This document shows, piece after piece, positions 2,750 to 38,833 of a DNA stretch of 38,833 nt (position 1 is its first letter; every line of letters begins with the position of its first letter). The stretch spans positions 1 through 38,833 of the IMG/VR virus record IMGVR_UViG_3300018080_000330; one strand, 5' to 3'. Under the pieces are notes generated by a model. It saw only the letters and a list, made by a program, of their open reading frames with translations. It was not told the DNA's origin and searched no databases. Position numbers and translations under genes: made by a program. The stretch comes from a virus.

Positions 2750-3223
2750 CTATATTAGTATTGTTATTAGCTGTATTATCAGCTCGGTTGCTTTCTCTCT
2801 CTTTTCAGGCTTTTCTACTGCCATTTTCAAATAATATGCTAGTTCGGTACTTGCTTCCCTCTTGGTAATTTCCTTAACTTTTTCAAAAGTTATACTTCTT
2901 TTTTCAAACCACACATTACCAAACAAAGTTTTTACACCTTTAAAAACCATTCTTGCTACTTTACCCGACCACAAATCCTGCCTTGCCCACATCAACGCAG
3001 TCATAGGGGATATTGAAACCTTAGTACCAGTCATATTCTCTAGCTTTAGTTTGAGTTTGTTTAAACCCTTAAAATCTAGTTTATCTGCGATATAAATCAT
3101 GTCTAAATCTTTGACACAACTACCACCAACTAAAACACTACAATTAGTTGTTAAACCGCAACCCTGTAAGGTTTTATTCCATTCTTTCGGTAGCTTTTCT
3201 AGCAACGTTTTTTTCATTATCAT
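2750..3223 (-). CDS. Possible nucleotidyltransferase-fold protein, 157 aa
   Basis: Contains SVLVGGSCVKDLDMIYI at about residues 29-45. The GGS...DxD arrangement recalls the polymerase-beta-like nucleotidyltransferase signature (GS followed by D-h-D), with a shortened linker. A helical C-terminal half rich in Lys/Glu follows and ends in a hydrophobic IIQLITILI. It overlaps the end of the HprK/Nudix gene by 50 nt and has no clear ribosome site, so translation is probably coupled. The family call is tentative. Confidence 0.45.
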   Translation of the reverse strand: MIMKKTLLEKLPKEWNKTLQGCGLTTNCSVLVGGSCVKDLDMIYIADKLDFKGLNKLKLKLENMTGTKVSISPMTALMWARQDLWSGKVARMVFKGVKTLFGNVWFEKRSITFEKVKEITKREASTELAYYLKMAVEKPEKREKATELIIQLITILI

Positions 3224-4325
3224 AAGTTAATTTTTCTACTACTTCTGAAACATTTACCCACTCACCACTCAATGACTCCTCTTTCATTTCTTTAGTCTTA
3301 ACCTGCTTACTATCAGTTTTCATTAAATAAAATCTAACTATTTTGTGATGATAAAACTCTGGTTCTTCCTCTAACTCAAAATCGTATTCAATAATATGCA
3401 CTGGGTCAGTGTCTAAAACCTCTATTTTGTTATGCCCTGTTTCTTCCGACACTTCTCTAACAGCAGTGGCAATCAATTCCTCATCTTCTTCAACATGTCC
3501 TTTAGGTAACATCCAATCATCCCTAGTATCTTTATGAATTAAATACACTTTGCTCATATCGGAATTAAATAAAACTCCGCCACATGAAACGTGGTTTTTA
3601 ATCTTCTTGTCCATAAATAAACCTCCTTTCTTTAAAATATTTACTAAATCCTTTGGGTCTTTTAACTGAAGCTCATAAATAGGTATATTATCGAAATTAG
3701 GATATATACTAACCAATTTAACTATGTTCTTAATTGCCTTTTCTTCTTTAGTTCCTGTAAAAACATTAAATCTATCGTATTCTGGGTGGTGCAATTTAAC
3801 TAAGTGCGAATAAGCTGTGCATTTCAAAGCATTTTTAGCCCTATCCCCGTACAGTCTAGTTAGTTTGTTCTTTCCCGATGGTTTTGGACAAACAATAGAC
3901 CCCAACGGTGTTGGATTTAATGCGTAATCATTTTCATCTAATAAAAGATATTCCTCATATTTATCAAAAATATCTTCCATAAATGTCTTAGATGAGGGTT
4001 TACAGTGTATTGGGTAGTTACTATTGGGGTAAACATACCCACCTTTATATAAAACAAACTCATCAGCTATATATTTAGAGTCTAATAGACCTTGTTTCAA
4101 AAATAGAGAGGCTGTTGTTTTTCCTATAGATTGACCATCATCTCCAAATAAAATGGCTTTACCATTAACTAAAACAGCCGACCCATGTAATACCTTCCAA
4201 TTATTATTTGATAAAGCAAATATTCTATAAAATGCTTGGTGCATTAAAATTAGGTTAGTTTTGCTTCCTATATCTACCTTGTTTAACACCTCACTATATT
4301 TTTTAAAAACTTCGCTTACCCTCAC
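3174..4325 (-). CDS. HPr-kinase-like P-loop domain fused to Nudix hydrolase, 383 aa
   Basis: GTG start with GGGAGGT 6 nt upstream, overlapping the macrodomain gene by 4 nt (GTGA). Residues about 45-130 resemble HprK-type kinases: LHGSAVLVNGKAILF, a P-loop variant GDDGQSIGKTT (61-71, two residues longer than the usual GxSGxGK), then IADEFVLY and NYPIHCKPSS. Residues 246-370 are a Nudix domain with a full box from Gly276 (GHVEEDEE...REVSEETGH), the last hydrophobic position replaced by His. Nudix enzymes cleave nucleoside diphosphates linked to another group, such as ADP-ribose or Ap4A. The neighbouring macrodomain makes ADP-ribose an attractive but unproven substrate. The kinase substrate is unknown. 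Confidence 0.85.
   Translation of the reverse strand: MRVSEVFKKYSEVLNKVDIGSKTNLILMHQAFYRIFALSNNNWKVLHGSAVLVNGKAILFGDDGQSIGKTTASLFLKQGLLDSKYIADEFVLYKGGYVYPNSNYPIHCKPSSKTFMEDIFDKYEEYLLLDENDYALNPTPLGSIVCPKPSGKNKLTRLYGDRAKNALKCTAYSHLVKLHHPEYDRFNVFTGTKEEKAIKNIVKLVSIYPNFDNIPIYELQLKDPKDLVNILKKGGLFMDKKIKNHVSCGGVLFNSDMSKVYLIHKDTRDDWMLPKGHVEEDEELIATAVREVSEETGHNKIEVLDTDPVHIIEYDFELEEEPEFYHHKIVRFYLMKTDSKQVKTKEMKEESLSGEWVNVSEVVEKLTYDNEKNVARKATERME
3612..3629 (-). promoter_or_regulatory. Internal ribosome binding site and start for a separate Nudix protein
   Basis: Minus strand has AAAGGAGGT, 7 nt, then ATG (3614-3612), in frame with the long gene at codon 238. It codes for the linker KKGG of the fusion and would yield a free 146-residue Nudix protein (3614-3174) beginning MDKKIKNHVSCGG. 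Confidence 0.75.
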
Positions 4326-5464
4326 GATACCTCCCCCATAACATAAATTTCATCTGCTCTGCACTTATCCCCTTGTGGGTCAATTACCACATTCCTTTTA
4401 TTTTTTGGTATAGCTACTCTTAATATAGTGTTGTAATCACTATCAAAGTTAGCCACAAAATCAAAGTCACTGAAGTAAATACCACCCTTAACGCAAGAAC
4501 CCTCTTTTTTAAACTTATTTGTATCTTTTACCCATGTTTTATCTTTGAAAACTAAATTGCCTTTCGTTGTTCTATTTTCCCTTACCGCTTTATAGAAAAT
4601 AAAACACTCCACATCTTTTTTACACTTTTTTATGAAGGTGGTTTCTGCTAAACGTGTTTTAGCAAAATCTTTAAATGTTGGGTTTTTCTTCTCACAAACT
4701 AAACCAGTTTTTCTTAAAATATCTAAATTACCTTTCAAATGTAAATGCCTTATGAAGCAATCACCAAATTCCGCCTCGTTGCCTATTTTCACCCAGTCGC
4801 CTATTTTCGCCCCGTTGCCTATTTTCGCCCCGTTGCCTATTTCCACCCAGTCGCCTATTTTCGCCCCGTTGCCTATTTTCGCCCCGTTGCCTATTTTCGC
4901 CCAGTTGCCTATTTTCGCCAAGTAGCCTATTTTCGCCCAGTTGCCTATTTTCGCCCCGTTGCCTATTTCCACCCTGTCACCTATTTCCGCCTTGTTGCCT
5001 ATTTTCACCCCGTTGCCTATTTTCACCCCGTTGCCCATACCGTCACCGAAAACCCTCGCCAATAACTCAATAAATCTATCATCCTCATAACCACCAATAC
5101 CAGTACCAACACAAGTTAAAACAACTGGTTTACCAACATAATAGGCATAAAAAACTTGAACTAAAGCTCTAGTTAATACTTGCTCCGAAGTAGTTAAATT
5201 GTTACCCACACTAACTATTGGGAATAGATGATCCGTTAATATATGTTCCTCTAAATCTTTAACCTCATCGGGAAATGCCTTTGCTATTTCACCATCCAAA
5301 CCACCACCCATAGAAAAAGAAGGATTGCTTGCTGTTGCTATGTAAGCATCCCTTTCTTTAGCCACCTCAAATACATCTCCGTGTATAGCCTCTAGTTTTG
5401 GTAAAGCCTTCTGTATCTTTTCTATTAACTTTTTATTTTTATCTACTATTATTACTTTATTCAT
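4322..5464 (-). CDS. Macrodomain + left-handed beta-helix + KCRA-type C-terminal domain, 380 aa
   Basis: Residues 1-141 are a macrodomain: IHGDVFEVA, ATASNPSFSMGGGLDGEI (the NAAN...GGGVDGAI ADP-ribose loop) and CVGTGIGGY (the phosphate loop). Residues 145-236 are about 15 hexapeptide repeats of the form [VA]-[KE]-I-G-x-x, a left-handed parallel beta-helix of about five coils, which usually trimerises. Residues 237-380 end with ILRVAIPKN and KCRADEIYVMGEV, a pattern I know from the C-termini of phage repeat proteins of unknown function (DUF5758-like; from memory). AAAAGG site before ATG. It is followed by the HprK/Nudix gene with a 4-nt overlap. Likely binds or processes ADP-ribose or ADP-ribosylated targets; whether it is enzymatic is unknown. 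Confidence 0.82.
   Translation of the reverse strand: MNKVIIVDKNKKLIEKIQKALPKLEAIHGDVFEVAKERDAYIATASNPSFSMGGGLDGEIAKAFPDEVKDLEEHILTDHLFPIVSVGNNLTTSEQVLTRALVQVFYAYYVGKPVVLTCVGTGIGGYEDDRFIELLARVFGDGMGNGVKIGNGVKIGNKAEIGDRVEIGNGAKIGNWAKIGYLAKIGNWAKIGNGAKIGNGAKIGDWVEIGNGAKIGNGAKIGDWVKIGNEAEFGDCFIRHLHLKGNLDILRKTGLVCEKKNPTFKDFAKTRLAETTFIKKCKKDVECFIFYKAVRENRTTKGNLVFKDKTWVKDTNKFKKEGSCVKGGIYFSDFDFVANFDSDYNTILRVAIPKNKRNVVIDPQGDKCRADEIYVMGEVS
4757..5032 (-). repeat. 18-bp coding tandem repeats (hexapeptide beta-helix)
   Basis: About 15 imperfect 18-bp units, plus strand type cctattttcgccccgttg. Near-identical third positions show recent expansion, so copy number may vary between relatives. Confidence 0.9.
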
Positions 5465-8517: not shown

Positions 8518-8935
8518 AACTATCTATCTCATCAATATTACTTTTAACAAAGTTTTTAATATGACAAACACAATCAAACCTATTAAACAAAACTCCTTTT
8601 TTAATAACATCCTCTTTGCACTTATCACATCTTCCCAATGTCCACACTATTTGAAAACCACCCACAAAACCACCCGACCACTTGAACGTGCTTAGTGGAT
8701 GGGCTTTTCCACGCTTAAACGTATGATAGTTACTTATAGGAACTTTGTGACAAAATCTATCAAAAAGCTCTTGCGGAAAAGACATGGAATTAAATTTCTT
8801 AACAGCGTCACCCCAAAGTTGCGGAACATAGTCACTCGCCTTCTTAGCTCTATGCTCCACACTAACTTTAATCTTTTCCTTGTTTTTGGTATCACTTAAC
8901 CAACCTTTTAGAGATTGTGGTAACTCATTTTCCAT
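8504..8935 (-). CDS. Putative zinc-binding replication-region protein, 143 aa
   Basis: ATG at 8935 is chosen for its GGAGGAAG site; it overlaps the initiator gene by 11 nt. The C-terminal half has RCDKCKED and FDCVCHIK, a probable zinc site, preceded by a Gly/Trp-rich GGFVGGFQIVWTLG. Translational coupling to the initiator suggests a replication partner (loader or accessory), but no ATPase motif is visible and the call is from position only. Confidence 0.6.
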   Translation of the reverse strand: MENELPQSLKGWLSDTKNKEKIKVSVEHRAKKASDYVPQLWGDAVKKFNSMSFPQELFDRFCHKVPISNYHTFKRGKAHPLSTFKWSGGFVGGFQIVWTLGRCDKCKEDVIKKGVLFNRFDCVCHIKNFVKSNIDEIDSYVKF

Positions 8936-9713
8936 TTTTCTTCCTCCATAATTCGACAAGCTCACCTATATAATCCACGGGGTTACCCTGCTTGTCTCGT
9001 CTTCTAAGTAACAACGTAGGGTCTGGACTACCTGCCCACCAAAGACCTTGCTTTATAGCTCCCACTGCTTTAGATATATCTTCCCAACTATAAAACTCTA
9101 ACCAATAGGATAAATTATTCTCGAAAGATAACGCTTTATACTTAGTATTAAGGTTTTGATTAAACCCTTGTAAGAATCTCTCTGCGTTTTCCCGCATTTT
9201 TTTCTTACTAATTCTTTTAAGAGGGGGTGTAGGTTTTTTCTCCTCTCCCCTATCCTTACCTAACCTATCCTTACCTAACCTATCCTGTGGTAACCAAACG
9301 TCTACCGTTGGTATGACATCTGGTATGACATCTGGTATGACATCTGGTATGACATCTGGTATGACATCTGGTATGACATCTGGTATACCAGAACTAAGAA
9401 CCTTCAATTCTTCCTTATATACAGCTAAATACTTTGATGGTGTATATCTATCAGATCGTATGTAGTTGTGTTCCTTCCAGTCTTTTATTATTAAAACATT
9501 CTCATCAAAAACTTTAACAAACCCTCTTACTTGTAAAATACTTAGGTCGTCTGGTTTAGCCTCCACCATTCTCATTATTGAAAAATGTTCACAAAAGCCA
9601 TCATCATCTGAATTTAAATTTAAATGGAAATAGAGATTTTGAGCCGATTGAGGCATCATAAGAAAGCGACTTGAGTTCGTAATTGTTTTACTAAGCATTC
9701 TTCTATTTGCCAT
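8925..9713 (-). CDS. Replication initiator / replisome organizer, 262 aa
   Basis: N-terminal domain MANRRMLSKTITNSSRFLMM, SAQNLYFHLNLNSDDDGFCEH, then IIKDWKEHNYIRSDRYTPSKY is the winged-helix origin-binding domain typical of Gram-positive phage replisome organizers. A low-complexity linker of six IPDV repeats (about residues 110-133) and DRLGK repeats follows, then a helical C-terminal domain (WLEFYSWEDISKAVGAI...WWAGSPDPTLLLRR) like those that recruit helicase loaders. The linker DNA is a set of iterons, so the gene probably carries its own origin, as lambda O does. Site GAGGAG before ATG. Confidence 0.85.
   Translation of the reverse strand: MANRRMLSKTITNSSRFLMMPQSAQNLYFHLNLNSDDDGFCEHFSIMRMVEAKPDDLSILQVRGFVKVFDENVLIIKDWKEHNYIRSDRYTPSKYLAVYKEELKVLSSGIPDVIPDVIPDVIPDVIPDVIPDVIPTVDVWLPQDRLGKDRLGKDRGEEKKPTPPLKRISKKKMRENAERFLQGFNQNLNTKYKALSFENNLSYWLEFYSWEDISKAVGAIKQGLWWAGSPDPTLLLRRRDKQGNPVDYIGELVELWRKKNGK
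9249..9285 (-). repeat. 15-bp tandem repeat in the initiator linker
   Basis: Plus strand cctatccttacctaa occurs twice in full plus a partial third copy. It codes for DRLGK repeats beside the 12-bp iterons. Confidence 0.85.
9310..9381. repeat. Six perfect 12-bp iterons, putative origin of replication
   Basis: GGTATGACATCT (plus strand) is repeated six times with no mismatch and followed by a partial copy, ggtatacca. It codes for IPDV. Perfect DNA identity in a flexible linker, inside an initiator gene, is what iteron origins look like. Confidence 0.7.
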
Positions 9714-14572: not shown

Positions 14573-15566
14573 GCGCTTTGCTCCAGAAATTACTATTCGC
14601 CTCAAATTGTTCTTTTGTCATTGTACCAAATCTTAAATCTTTTTCATCTTTACGCTTACCCCATACTTGATATGTACCATCAGTACATTCAATATATTTG
14701 TATGGTGCTACTGTAACTTCCTCAAACAAAGGGTCTATGTTGCCTTTGGTTTCACAAAAGTCCATAAACCAAACCTCTGGGGACTCCATACAGTATAGAG
14801 CATTATATCCTTGGGATGTAGGGAGTATGGCTGTTTTTGCAGCTGACCCTGCAACTTGAATACGGGTATCTCCACTATCATCATCTATTTTTACCTGACG
14901 AGCTGCAGAACCATCATATATAAAAAAAGAGGAATCATCGGAACATCTTAGTATAATGGAATCAGTTGCATCAATGTACACGTCATCATTACCCCATATA
15001 AAAATATCCCTCCCATCAAACGAAGTAAGGTTGACAGAATCGGCATCTTCGTCCAAGTATCCCACCAAGTCATCCCCAGAATCGTAAAGTTCTAAAGAAG
15101 ATTGACTGGCAGTTAACTCTACTCTAGTACCACTTGACGACGTTTTAATTGTTGTACCAGTAATAGTACCCGATGTTATCGTCACCGCATTCATAGAACC
15201 AGCCGTTATAGACCCTAAATTAGCGGTAATTGACGATAAAGTAGCTACAGTCATCTCTGTAGCAGTAATAGTTCCTGCAACAATTTCAGAAGCGGTTATT
15301 GTATTAGCGGCTATCTCTGTAGCGGTTATCGTGTTAGCAGCTATTTCAGAAGCGGTTATCGTGTCGGCGGCTATCTCTGTAGCGGTTATCGTGTTAGCAG
15401 CTATTTCAGAAGCGGTTATTGTATTAGCAGCTATCTCTGTGGCGGTTACCGAATCTTCCATTATCTGCCTGTTTTTTACCTCAAGAGGCAATACCTGCCT
15501 TTGACTTACACGCTCTTTAGCTTCTTCTATTTTTTTCTCAATTTCTAAAGTATCAAATGTACCCAT
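14565..15566 (-). CDS. Tail fibre protein with decapeptide repeats, 333 aa
   Basis: An N-terminal coiled coil (EIEKKIEEAKERV) precedes seven or more repeats of T-[AS]-x-E-I-x-A-x-T-I (about residues 39-105), typical of trimeric phage fibre shafts. Then come beta-rich segments with SGTITGTTIKTSSSGTRVEL, and a C-terminal globular part with Cys and Trp residues (GYNALYCMESPEVWFMDF). AGGA site overlaps the nozzle gene end. Probably a trimeric tail fibre or its distal part. Confidence 0.75.
   Translation of the reverse strand: MGTFDTLEIEKKIEEAKERVSQRQVLPLEVKNRQIMEDSVTATEIAANTITASEIAANTITATEIAADTITASEIAANTITATEIAANTITASEIVAGTITATEMTVATLSSITANLGSITAGSMNAVTITSGTITGTTIKTSSSGTRVELTASQSSLELYDSGDDLVGYLDEDADSVNLTSFDGRDIFIWGNDDVYIDATDSIILRCSDDSSFFIYDGSAARQVKIDDDSGDTRIQVAGSAAKTAILPTSQGYNALYCMESPEVWFMDFCETKGNIDPLFEEVTVAPYKYIECTDGTYQVWGKRKDEKDLRFGTMTKEQFEANSNFWSKAHG
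15256..15455 (-). repeat. 30/60-bp tandem repeat coding for the fibre shaft
   Basis: Alternating units ending in gctatctctgtagcgg and gctatttcagaagcgg on the plus strand, 30 bp each and near-identical, so expansion is recent. Confidence 0.85.
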
Positions 15567-36035: not shown

Positions 36036-37244
36036 TTATTGTTTAACAAAATTACTATATCTCTCCCTTATAACATCACAATACTTAGGGTCTAGTTCCA
36101 TCATGTAACAGGTTCTATCTAGTTGTTCACATGCTATTAGTGTTGAACCACTACCACCGAATAGGTCTAATACTGTGTCCACCCTCTCCGAACTATTCCT
36201 TATAGCTCTAAATGCTAGTTCTACAGGCTTTTGTGTCGGATGAACATAGTTAAAAGAAGCATCCGTAATTTTGTACCAAATGTTGCTCTCCTTACGCCCA
36301 CCATACCACTTTGCCACCTTTTTATTGTTCTTAGCATATATGCATTGGTCTGATAAAGAAATATAGGGAACCTTACTATCATTTATATCCTCATTGTACC
36401 CAAACGCTAAAAGCTCGTGTTGATTTCTATAGTTACCTCCTAACTTTATAAACGTCTTATCCCACACGATAACCTGGTCTACATGAAAATATTTAGACAT
36501 AGCTTTAAAAAGACGGGGGAACTGCCTCCAATCTATCCACTCATATATACTACAAACATCTTTGATCACACATTTGATATTTTGATTGTAAATATCTAGG
36601 AACTTTTCAAACTCATCGTCTGTGACATCGTCATATTTAAAAACATCCCAATACTTCTTATACGCACCCTTCCGCCTGTCTCCCGTCCCTGTATATTTCA
36701 GATTATAAGGCGGGTCAGTAAACACCATATCCGCTTTCTGTCCGTTCATTAGCTTTTCAACATCTTCTATCTTTGTACTATCACCACACATTAAACGATG
36801 TCTGCCTAGTTCGTACACCTCCCCTAGTTTGCTTTTAGGTTCCTCGGGTAATGGGGGTGCTTCGTCCTCTATAACCTCATCTGACTTCCACCCAGCCGTA
36901 TCAATTCCCCACTCATCCAAAGGTAAATCACCCCACTCGTTAGCAAGCACATCATCATCCCACTCTCCAAATTCTACGTTATCTCTTATAGCAAACTCTT
37001 TCTTTTCCTCTAACGTATAGCCTTTTAATTCCTTAAAATATTCAGGCTTCAGTTCAATATCCAATGCCTTTAAAGCCTCATACCTCATGTTTCCACCCCA
37101 TATGACACCATCATCGTCATAAGCAATAGGACGTACCTCAAGCATTTTAGTAAACGACCCGACAGACTTCTTTAATTTTTCAAAGTCTTTTTCTTTTATT
37201 TGTCTGGGATTGCTAGGATTAACTTTTAATTTTTTTAAGTCCAT
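36036..37244 (-). CDS. ParB-like domain fused to DNA methyltransferase, 402 aa
   Basis: Residues 1-95 resemble a ParB/Srx-type domain (KVNPSNPRQIKEKDFEKLKKS, then VIWGGNMRYEALKAL). Residues 140-402 are an N6-adenine/N4-cytosine methyltransferase: GEVYELGRHRLMCGD, catalytic TDPPYNL (DPPY at 177-180) and the AdoMet motif DLFGGSGST near residue 360, plus HPTQKPVEL. DPPY before FxGxG is the beta-type order. No restriction enzyme is nearby, so it is an orphan enzyme that may protect phage DNA or mark it for packaging. ATG (37244) rather than the TTG one codon earlier; no ribosome site. Confidence 0.92.
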   Translation of the reverse strand: MDLKKLKVNPSNPRQIKEKDFEKLKKSVGSFTKMLEVRPIAYDDDGVIWGGNMRYEALKALDIELKPEYFKELKGYTLEEKKEFAIRDNVEFGEWDDDVLANEWGDLPLDEWGIDTAGWKSDEVIEDEAPPLPEEPKSKLGEVYELGRHRLMCGDSTKIEDVEKLMNGQKADMVFTDPPYNLKYTGTGDRRKGAYKKYWDVFKYDDVTDDEFEKFLDIYNQNIKCVIKDVCSIYEWIDWRQFPRLFKAMSKYFHVDQVIVWDKTFIKLGGNYRNQHELLAFGYNEDINDSKVPYISLSDQCIYAKNNKKVAKWYGGRKESNIWYKITDASFNYVHPTQKPVELAFRAIRNSSERVDTVLDLFGGSGSTLIACEQLDRTCYMMELDPKYCDVIRERYSNFVKQ

Positions 37245-37253
37245 CAAGTATTT

Positions 37254-38033: not shown

Positions 38034-38256
38034 CGTCTAACACCCTTTCCATTTCTTTTTCTTCTTCTTCTAAAATAGAACCCTTTAAGTTTTGATCTCG
38101 TGGTGATAGGTTCTGAACAGCCCCTATCCTATCCTTGTTTATCTTACGTTTTATCCTTCTAAGCTGGCTAGTAATTTTATCAGGTGATTGCGAATAAACA
38201 CCCAACATAAATCCAGTCAAAACAAATATAAATATAATTACTGAAAATTCTATCAT
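38023..38256 (-). CDS. Single-span membrane protein, 77 aa
   Basis: An N-terminal hydrophobic segment (about residues 3-22, EFSVIIFIFVLTGFMLGV) is followed by a basic region (LRRIKRKINKDRIG) and an acidic tail (EEEEKEMERVLDD). The start overlaps the groEL stop as ATGA. The basic cytoplasmic part would bind nucleic acid or membrane. Coupled to groEL, so possibly a client or partner. Confidence 0.65.
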   Translation of the reverse strand: MIEFSVIIFIFVLTGFMLGVYSQSPDKITSQLRRIKRKINKDRIGAVQNLSPRDQNLKGSILEEEEKEMERVLDDVL

Positions 38257-38833
38257 TTTACAGGACCCGGATATCTAGGGATACTCGGTTTTTTCTCCTT
38301 TTCCTCTTTAGTTTCTACAATTAGACAATCTGTTGTTAAAATCATGATAGCGACCGATACTGCGTTTTGTAGAGCTGACCTAATAACCTTTGATGGATCA
38401 ATTATTCCCGTCTTTATCATGTCTTCATATTGCATAGTAACTACGTTATACCCTTGGTTCTTCTCTTTTAATCCCGCTATAATTTCTCCTGCATCTAGCC
38501 CAGCGTTTTTTAAAATCTTAGTTATAGGATACCTCAAAGCGTTGAACACAATCTTATGCCCTATGTCTTGACTATCCTCAATAACTTTTCTGGAGTTTAA
38601 TAGAGCAACACCACCACCCGGAACAATTCCTTCCTCCACTGCAGCTTTAGTAGCATTAACGGCATCTTCAACCCTCAATTTTCTTTCTCTCAATTCAGTT
38701 TCTGACGCAGCGCCAACATTTAATACGGCTATACCGTTGCTTAGAGCCCCTAACCGTTCCTTAAGTTTTTCTCTGTCAAACTCGGTGGGTGAATTATCTA
38801 TACGTTTTGAAATGTGTTTAACCCTTTCTTTAA
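38253..38833 (-). CDS. groEL: Chaperonin GroEL, C-terminal part (gene starts at 1144)
   Basis: Second piece of groEL; 38253-38710 holds the remaining 152 codons and 38711-38833 repeats bases 1-123. Contains ELRERKLRVEDAVNAT with Asp397 equivalent to the catalytic Asp398 of E. coli, VEEGIVPGGGVAL, and DPSKVIRSALQNAVSVA. Cellular proteins end in GGM repeats; this one instead ends TKEEKEKKPSIPRYPGPVK. The missing GGM tail can change cavity volume or folding rate. The stop overlaps the next ATG as ATGA. Confidence 0.96.
   Translation of the reverse strand, partial: KERVKHISKRIDNSPTEFDREKLKERLGALSNGIAVLNVGAASETELRERKLRVEDAVNATKAAVEEGIVPGGGVALLNSRKVIEDSQDIGHKIVFNALRYPITKILKNAGLDAGEIIAGLKEKNQGYNVVTMQYEDMIKTGIIDPSKVIRSALQNAVSVAIMILTTDCLIVETKEEKEKKPSIPRYPGPVK
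38711..38833. repeat. Terminal direct repeat, right copy (circular overlap)
   Basis: Identical to 1-123. See the left copy. Confidence 0.97.

Follow-up and report, generated by a model that had tools for sequence, protein, structure and literature searches.

The locus studied here raises the question of whether the perfect tandem repeats inside a phage replication initiator gene are a replication origin or a repetitive stretch of the encoded protein. The window, i.e., the whole stretch of 38,833 nt that was analyzed, is a circular phage genome with a 123-bp terminal direct repeat on the contig. GC skew showed no switch and gave no origin signal, being monotonic because nearly all genes lie on one strand.

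Initiator gene and its two repeat arrays

The gene that appears to contain the origin is an ORF on the minus strand (8925-9713) encoding an initiator or replisome organizer of 262 aa. Profile searches placed the protein in DnaD-like helicase-loader families (phrog_5708, E 2.4e-47; phrog_8489, E 6.3e-45), with no match in Pfam and 0 matches among PDB sequences at E 1. In AlphaFold2 models, the N-terminal part (aa 1-105, 9399-9713, minus strand) is a winged-helix domain with the order H-H-H-E-H-H-E-E, which reached a mean pLDDT of 91.3 when modelled on its own. Residues 109-156 form a disordered linker with pLDDT below 50 that coincides with the repeats, and the C-terminal part (aa about 157-262, 8928-9245, minus strand) was predicted at moderate confidence to be helical, with helices at 170-188, 197-207, 210-221, 232-242 and 245-260. 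In close relatives, the N-domain is 69-76% identical, the C-termini look unrelated and the linkers differ widely. Foldseek matches of the N-domain were weak, namely 5kbj (a plasmid RepA N-domain/Rep-DNA complex) at E 0.009 and 4pql and 4pt7 at up to E 0.025, all of which we take to be RepA_N proteins; VIA gave Z-scores of 5.7-5.9 over 78 residues against RepA_N structures, among many tied winged helices. The top VIA match of the whole initiator model, DnaD 9a5c, was discarded since the rmsd was 17. The N-domain is likely the part that binds the repeats.

Elsewhere in the genome, several other genes on the minus strand were recognized. A phage GroEL (PF00118, E 6.5e-37), split across the circular ends, and a GroES (PF00166, E 4.5e-23) are found at 2-1438 and 38253-38831, a nucleoside diphosphate kinase at 2363-2740 (PF00334, E 9.5e-23), and a NUDIX domain (PF00293) at 3174-4325, fused to a preceding N-terminal part with a presumed HprK-like P-loop, judged by eye. 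A hexapeptide (left-handed beta-helix) protein is encoded at 4322-5464 and includes 14.7 degenerate 18-bp repeats (4772-5035), over which two plus-strand frames are also open (ORFs of 97 and 106 aa). A DNA N6/N4 methylase with an N-terminal part that is ParB-like by eye lies near the terminase genes (36036-37247, PF01555, E 2.3e-27). In addition, a putative fibre gene contains 30/60-bp repeats at 15283-15448 encoding TITATEIAANTITASEIAAN.

The first repeat array of the initiator gene consists of 6.5 exact 12-bp units at 9309-9386 (TRF period 12, 100% match), reading ATGTCATACCAG on the coding strand. There are exactly six copies of GGTATGACATCT in the window, always on the plus strand (9310, 9322, 9334, 9346, 9358 and 9370), so the six exact copies of the original prediction are indeed present in the linker (9310-9381), where the array encodes (IPDV)6IP. 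Every copy uses one codon per residue, with a chance of about 6e-8 given the codon usage of the phage and codons taken as independent; GTC, used six times, accounts for only 6.2% of its valine codons. The prediction had read this lack of third-position drift as selection on DNA or very recent expansion. The second part holds up as likely, but as evidence of selection the exactness is weak by itself, since identical copies would arise just as readily by tandem slippage. On the promoter side, the array ends in the perfect palindrome TGGTATACCA (9381-9390), a single copy in the genome.

The second array was originally described as 15-bp repeats accompanying the iterons. Two copies of CCTATCCTTACCTAA (starting at 9249 and 9264) plus a partial one are present at 9249-9286 with a 100% match (TRF), encoding RLGKDRLGKD in the same ORF. 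However, they are not a second iteron set. Each 15-bp repeat is made of three 5-mers, AGGAT AGGTT AGGTA, and belongs to a separate element with a 5-bp period, a ladder of ten consecutive AGNNN units on the coding (minus) strand covering 50 bp (9237-9286). Its first AG is part of a CACAG junction (9285-9289, minus strand). The next longest AG run at step 5 in the genome has 4 units, the maximum in 100 first-order Markov genomes was 6, and only 2 of 1000 synonymous shuffles of the initiator gene reached 10. By nearest-neighbour calculation, the ladder is at the 55th percentile of duplex stability, and both ladder and iterons are average, so that a simple AT-rich unwinding element of the classical type was rejected. 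As DNA of ordinary stability, the ladder would act by recognition rather than by easy melting.

Relatives and constraint at the DNA level

A tblastn search against phage records found 126 records, including replication proteins of Tuc2009 and of Streptococcus and Lactobacillus phages. The Tuc2009 Rep match covers residues 1-184 at 31.9% identity (E 4e-19), so that the N-terminal domain is homologous, and the Tuc2009 record annotates this gene with 'contains origin of replication'. Excerpts of PMC8965321 describe binding of TP901-1 ORF13 and Tuc2009 Rep to direct repeats that lie in the respective gene and serve as ori. Further relatives were taken from viral contigs (9 loci, then the best 80 of 93 relatives) and genome contigs (2). 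After removing proteins shorter than 120 aa, exact duplicates and the truncated L020 and L081, the non-redundant set contained 83 homologs. TP901-1 Rep (L094, with relatives L101-L117) was excluded as a homolog because it belongs to another family without a lag-5 signal (score 0.48).

Self-similarity of the linker was determined over codons 80-200 as the best 25-nt window at lags 3-30, relative to synonymous shuffles that preserve the protein. Across the 83 homologs, the only lags above the shuffles were 5, 10, 15, 20 and 25 and 11 and 22. Lag 5 exceeded them in 47 genes and lag 11 in 27, the score being matched by no more than 1 in 100 shuffles, while codons 1-80 did not rise above threshold at any of the seven lags examined (5, 10, 11, 12, 15, 22 and 33). 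Peptide repetition alone does not yield periods of 5 and 11 because neither is a multiple of 3.

The same constraint was seen in the motifs. Starts of an iteron-like motif, trained without the window and its close relatives, were distributed over frames 0, 1 and 2 as 71, 54 and 67, with 11 as the commonest spacing, and the repeated 11-bp units of the relatives are read in all three frames. GTATAC is present in three frames in the linkers of 45 of the 83 genes (shuffle mean 27.5) and absent from codons 1-80; TGGTATACCA is found in two reading frames in 22 linkers, compared with a shuffle mean of 2.1. What the relatives conserve is thus DNA words in other frames, and not the IPDV peptide with synonymous changes.

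Within this family, the 12-bp period is unusual. Self-similarity at lag 12 is 1.0 in the window, and one other homolog reaches 0.8. The comparison of iteron number between related phages, called for by the original prediction, gave 0-2 copies of the 12-bp unit in neighbouring relatives, compared with six here. Compared by eye, ATGTCATACCAG looks like a relative's 11-bp unit, for instance ATGTATACCAA, to which one base has been added. L014 opens with TGGTATACCAGATG exactly like the window and continues at 11-bp spacing, being the nearest-relative example of the shared start TGGTATACCAGATGACAACCA, and L003 and L028 contain single pairs of iteron-like sites 12 bp apart. The 12-bp unit is probably the family iteron of 11 bp plus one base that restored the frame, followed by in-frame slippage to 6.5 copies. 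This link is a reading by eye, since none of the 12-bp units was among the top 25 genome hits of the 11-bp motif matrix, trained in the same way; from this region, only TGGTAACCAAA (9288) and TGGTATACCAG (9381/9390) were in that list. Slippage is thus likely to have made the copies identical, and their DNA function is supported by homology.

Ladder in homologs and other initiator families

A ladder of at least 5 units was found in 69 of the 83 homologs, while 14 had no run of 5. AG at step 5 was the strongest of 16 dinucleotides at 9 periods. The ladder has 12 units in Tuc2009 and 8 in r1t; 11-bp repeats lie just upstream of it in 34 of the 69 homologs, CAC precedes the first AG in 32 of the 69, and C makes up 0.9% of the ladder bases on the coding strand. 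In L062 and L068, the AG ladder is replaced by a C-rich AACNN array at step 5 on the coding strand, with an NLTKH-type peptide, which is possibly an alternative pentamer alphabet.

The base preceding AG, which played no part in ladder selection, is the clearest sign of selection on the DNA. In 63 distinct ladders, T precedes AG in 132 of 169 cases at codon position 2 and in 145 of 173 at position 3 (277/342). At codon position 1, where TAG would be a stop, T was found in 0 of 156 cases and A in 130, usually after T. TAG is thus preferred, with (T)AAG used where an in-frame stop looms. Codon choice was evaluated with Asp and Asn, because their third base is not part of AG; the ladders had been selected by AG, which makes the same comparison partly circular for Lys, Arg, Ser, Leu and Ile. 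Asp is encoded by GAT in 111 of 116 codons within ladders (810 of 1211 elsewhere) and Asn by AAT in 44 of 45 (651 of 1054 elsewhere). Pentapeptides such as RLGKD and SIDKN look like by-products of the DNA ladder.

The occurrence of the ladder was also evaluated without reference to any protein, by scanning viral contigs for ten AG at step 5. At least 120 stretches were found and 80 loci examined, 69 of which have an ORF over the ladder. Members of the N-domain family account for 29 of them, and of the 40 other ORFs, 20 were scanned singly: 17 match replication families (replication initiation protein, replisome organizer, O-like and DnaD-like), and L132, L151 and L155 gave no family match at E 1e-5. 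Ladders thus lie inside initiator genes of several families at 46 of the 80 examined loci; the remaining ones include microsatellite-like arrays, antisense ORFs and loci with no ORF. The TAG bias was absent from the 17 loci of other families.

By uniform blastp, and among the matches listed, N-domain family members were found at 37 of 142 loci for AG at step 5, 2 of 142 for AC at step 5, 0 of 120 for TG at step 5 and 0 of 122 for AG at step 7. Also among the matches listed, AC and TG arrays at step 5 occur in some initiator genes with other pentads. Control ORFs of period 5 (40 of 59 scanned) matched replication families with 1 to 4 members each, and a second set (42 of 61) with 1 to 2 each. 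Since AC and TG arrays also match initiators, the 5-bp period, and not only AG, may mark initiators, and other initiator families may use other pentamers. The AG scan at period 7 (51 of 54 ORFs) gave four replication-initiation families with 1 member each among the matches listed. Separately, in that scan phrog_2165 ('DNA helicase') was matched by 27 of the 51 ORFs (L435-L511), which are 120-132 aa long in the examples seen and show C-terminal GLELEAC-like heptads, with AG every 7 nt on the complementary strand.

These data bear on what the ladder does if not strand capture. DnaG-type primers start with AG opposite CT, and the strand complementary to the ladder presents CT every 5 nt, mostly as CTA or CTT, so the ladder might be an array of primase start sites. 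The invariance of AG/CT and the T or A found before AG in 489 of 529 units agree with priming, but one site would suffice for it and a strict 5-nt register would not be expected; moreover, ladders of other families are not TAG-biased, and AC/CA-type pentads are also found in initiator genes. We consider an array of priming sites unlikely.

Initiators often bind repeats for autoregulation. The iterons could correspondingly be operators of the initiator gene, located past the start codon at a point where protein bound to them could stop transcription, with the origin elsewhere in the genome. Against this, the ori of the Tuc2009 homolog is in the same place, no comparable perfect array of short units exists elsewhere in the window, and operators leave the ladder beside the iterons unexplained, which makes a purely regulatory array quite improbable.

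Both arrays could instead be a slippage-expanded protein linker without any DNA function, its disorder making IPDV and RLGKD tolerable. The copies are exact and in frame, the linker is disordered, neighbours have 0-2 copies of the 12-bp unit, and the phage has other in-frame repeats (4772-5035 and 15283-15448). However, a protein linker does not account for homologs that keep DNA periods of 11 and 5 beyond synonymous shuffles, for the same DNA motifs in different frames, or for a switch from TAG to AAG at in-frame positions only, and tolerated slippage as the whole explanation is very improbable. Finally, a two-layer G-quadruplex holding the origin open, suggested by the GG recurring every 5 nt with 3-nt loops in the window ladder, is hardly credible, since only 288 of 529 units have G at the third position and r1t-type ladders (AGATAAGAATAG) keep AG and the register without GG runs.

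Proposed origin and its relation to known systems

The preferred reading, which we hold to be highly probable, is that this circular phage starts theta-type replication from a site within its initiator gene, in the part that encodes the linker, and that the site works as proposed below. The likely origin of the original prediction is thus supported by homology to Tuc2009 Rep, with its intragenic ori, and by the DNA motifs kept in relatives. The family, the position, the repeats, the DNA-level constraint on both arrays and the order of N-domain, iterons, CACAG and ladder can be read from the sequence itself, and the following steps would build on them. The winged-helix N-domain would bind TGGTATACCA together with the 12-bp iterons, forming a phased array, and this nucleoprotein array would then stress the flanking DNA. 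The opened coding strand over the CACAG junction and the 50-bp TAG/AAG ladder would be captured in a 5-nt register by subunits of the initiator or of its DnaD-like/helicase-loading partner, and the host helicase would be loaded at the captured ladder to start replication in the theta mode. A step of 5 bp alternates helix faces, which would fit recognition of a single strand better than binding to one side of the duplex.

As regards position, the placement in the manner of lambda O and Gram-positive phage organizers was borne out, as far as the excerpts of the lambda papers go: lambda iterons are in the middle of gene O, and the Tuc2009 ori is intragenic. Tuc2009 Rep2009-type origins share with the window the homologous N-domain, the location within the initiator gene and direct repeats upstream of an AG ladder. 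They differ in having 11-bp repeats in successive frames, whereas the window has exact 12-bp repeats in frame and a different C-terminal domain; since the 11-bp unit is common in that family, unit length was treated as variable and not as defining. Work by McGrath in 1999 and Zuniga in 2002 is said to have dealt with intragenic origins of lactococcal and streptococcal phages. RepA_N plasmid initiators of Gram-positive bacteria also have an intragenic origin. In Foldseek, the N-domain is closest, if weakly, to Rep N-domain entries; there is no significant sequence match, and the shared winged helix may be generic.

In lambda, according to excerpts of PMC5043065 and PMC7466680, iterons within the initiator gene bind O, the AT-rich and strand-asymmetric tract next to them opens, and ssDNA is then a target of O as well. 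As far as these excerpts describe it, the likeness lies in mid-gene iterons adjoining a strand-asymmetric tract. The lambda iterons, however, are 18-bp annotated sites beside an AT-rich tract with no AG ladder, whereas the tract of the window is not AT-weak, and the initiator gave no O-like match in PHROG at E 0.1 or better. In bacterial oriC, the DnaA-trio consensus 5'-TAG (3'-GAT-5') is given in excerpts of PMC10201434 as strand-specific motifs beside initiator boxes. To the extent that these excerpts cover them, DnaA-trios and the DnaD recognition element resemble the ladder as short strand-specific motifs by initiator boxes, and TAG is also favoured in the ladder. In contrast, DnaA-trios repeat every 3 nt and are used by the AAA+ protein DnaA, whereas the ladder has a 5-nt step and a winged-helix, DnaD-like initiator. 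By analogy with DnaA-trios or the asymmetric AT tract of lambda, the ladder would be a strand-specific capture element with a 5-nt register beside the iterons. It is not required for intragenic origins generally, since TP901-1 Rep is without lag-5 signal and lambda without AG ladder.

A broader reading, which we put forward with somewhat less than even confidence, is that the TAG/AAG ladder represents a distinct class of origin element, a capture track with 5-nt steps for non-AAA+ winged-helix/DnaD-like initiators, as a counterpart of the DnaA-trio. It would have arisen, or been retained, in several initiator families with varied pentamer alphabets and would dictate the pentapeptide of the linker (RLGKD, SIDKN, SKVKE). 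The literature search found none describing a 5-bp ladder or the RLGKD repeat as an origin feature, and the primary TP901-1, r1t and McGrath 1999 papers may mention the repeats. As an origin, the locus is of a known kind with a variant in iteron length, and the ladder, conserved and spread across initiator families, is apparently undescribed.

Little is understood of how a phage initiator that lacks an ATPase motor opens DNA and selects the strand on which helicase is loaded. A conserved ladder with a 5-nt step, which its conflict with stop codons makes visible, offers a directly testable answer. The window is in turn a natural variant, with 12-bp in-frame iterons, for asking how strict iteron phasing is. 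In addition, the ladder would be a protein-independent marker of origins for the many phage genomes in which the initiator is annotated as no more than a hypothetical protein.
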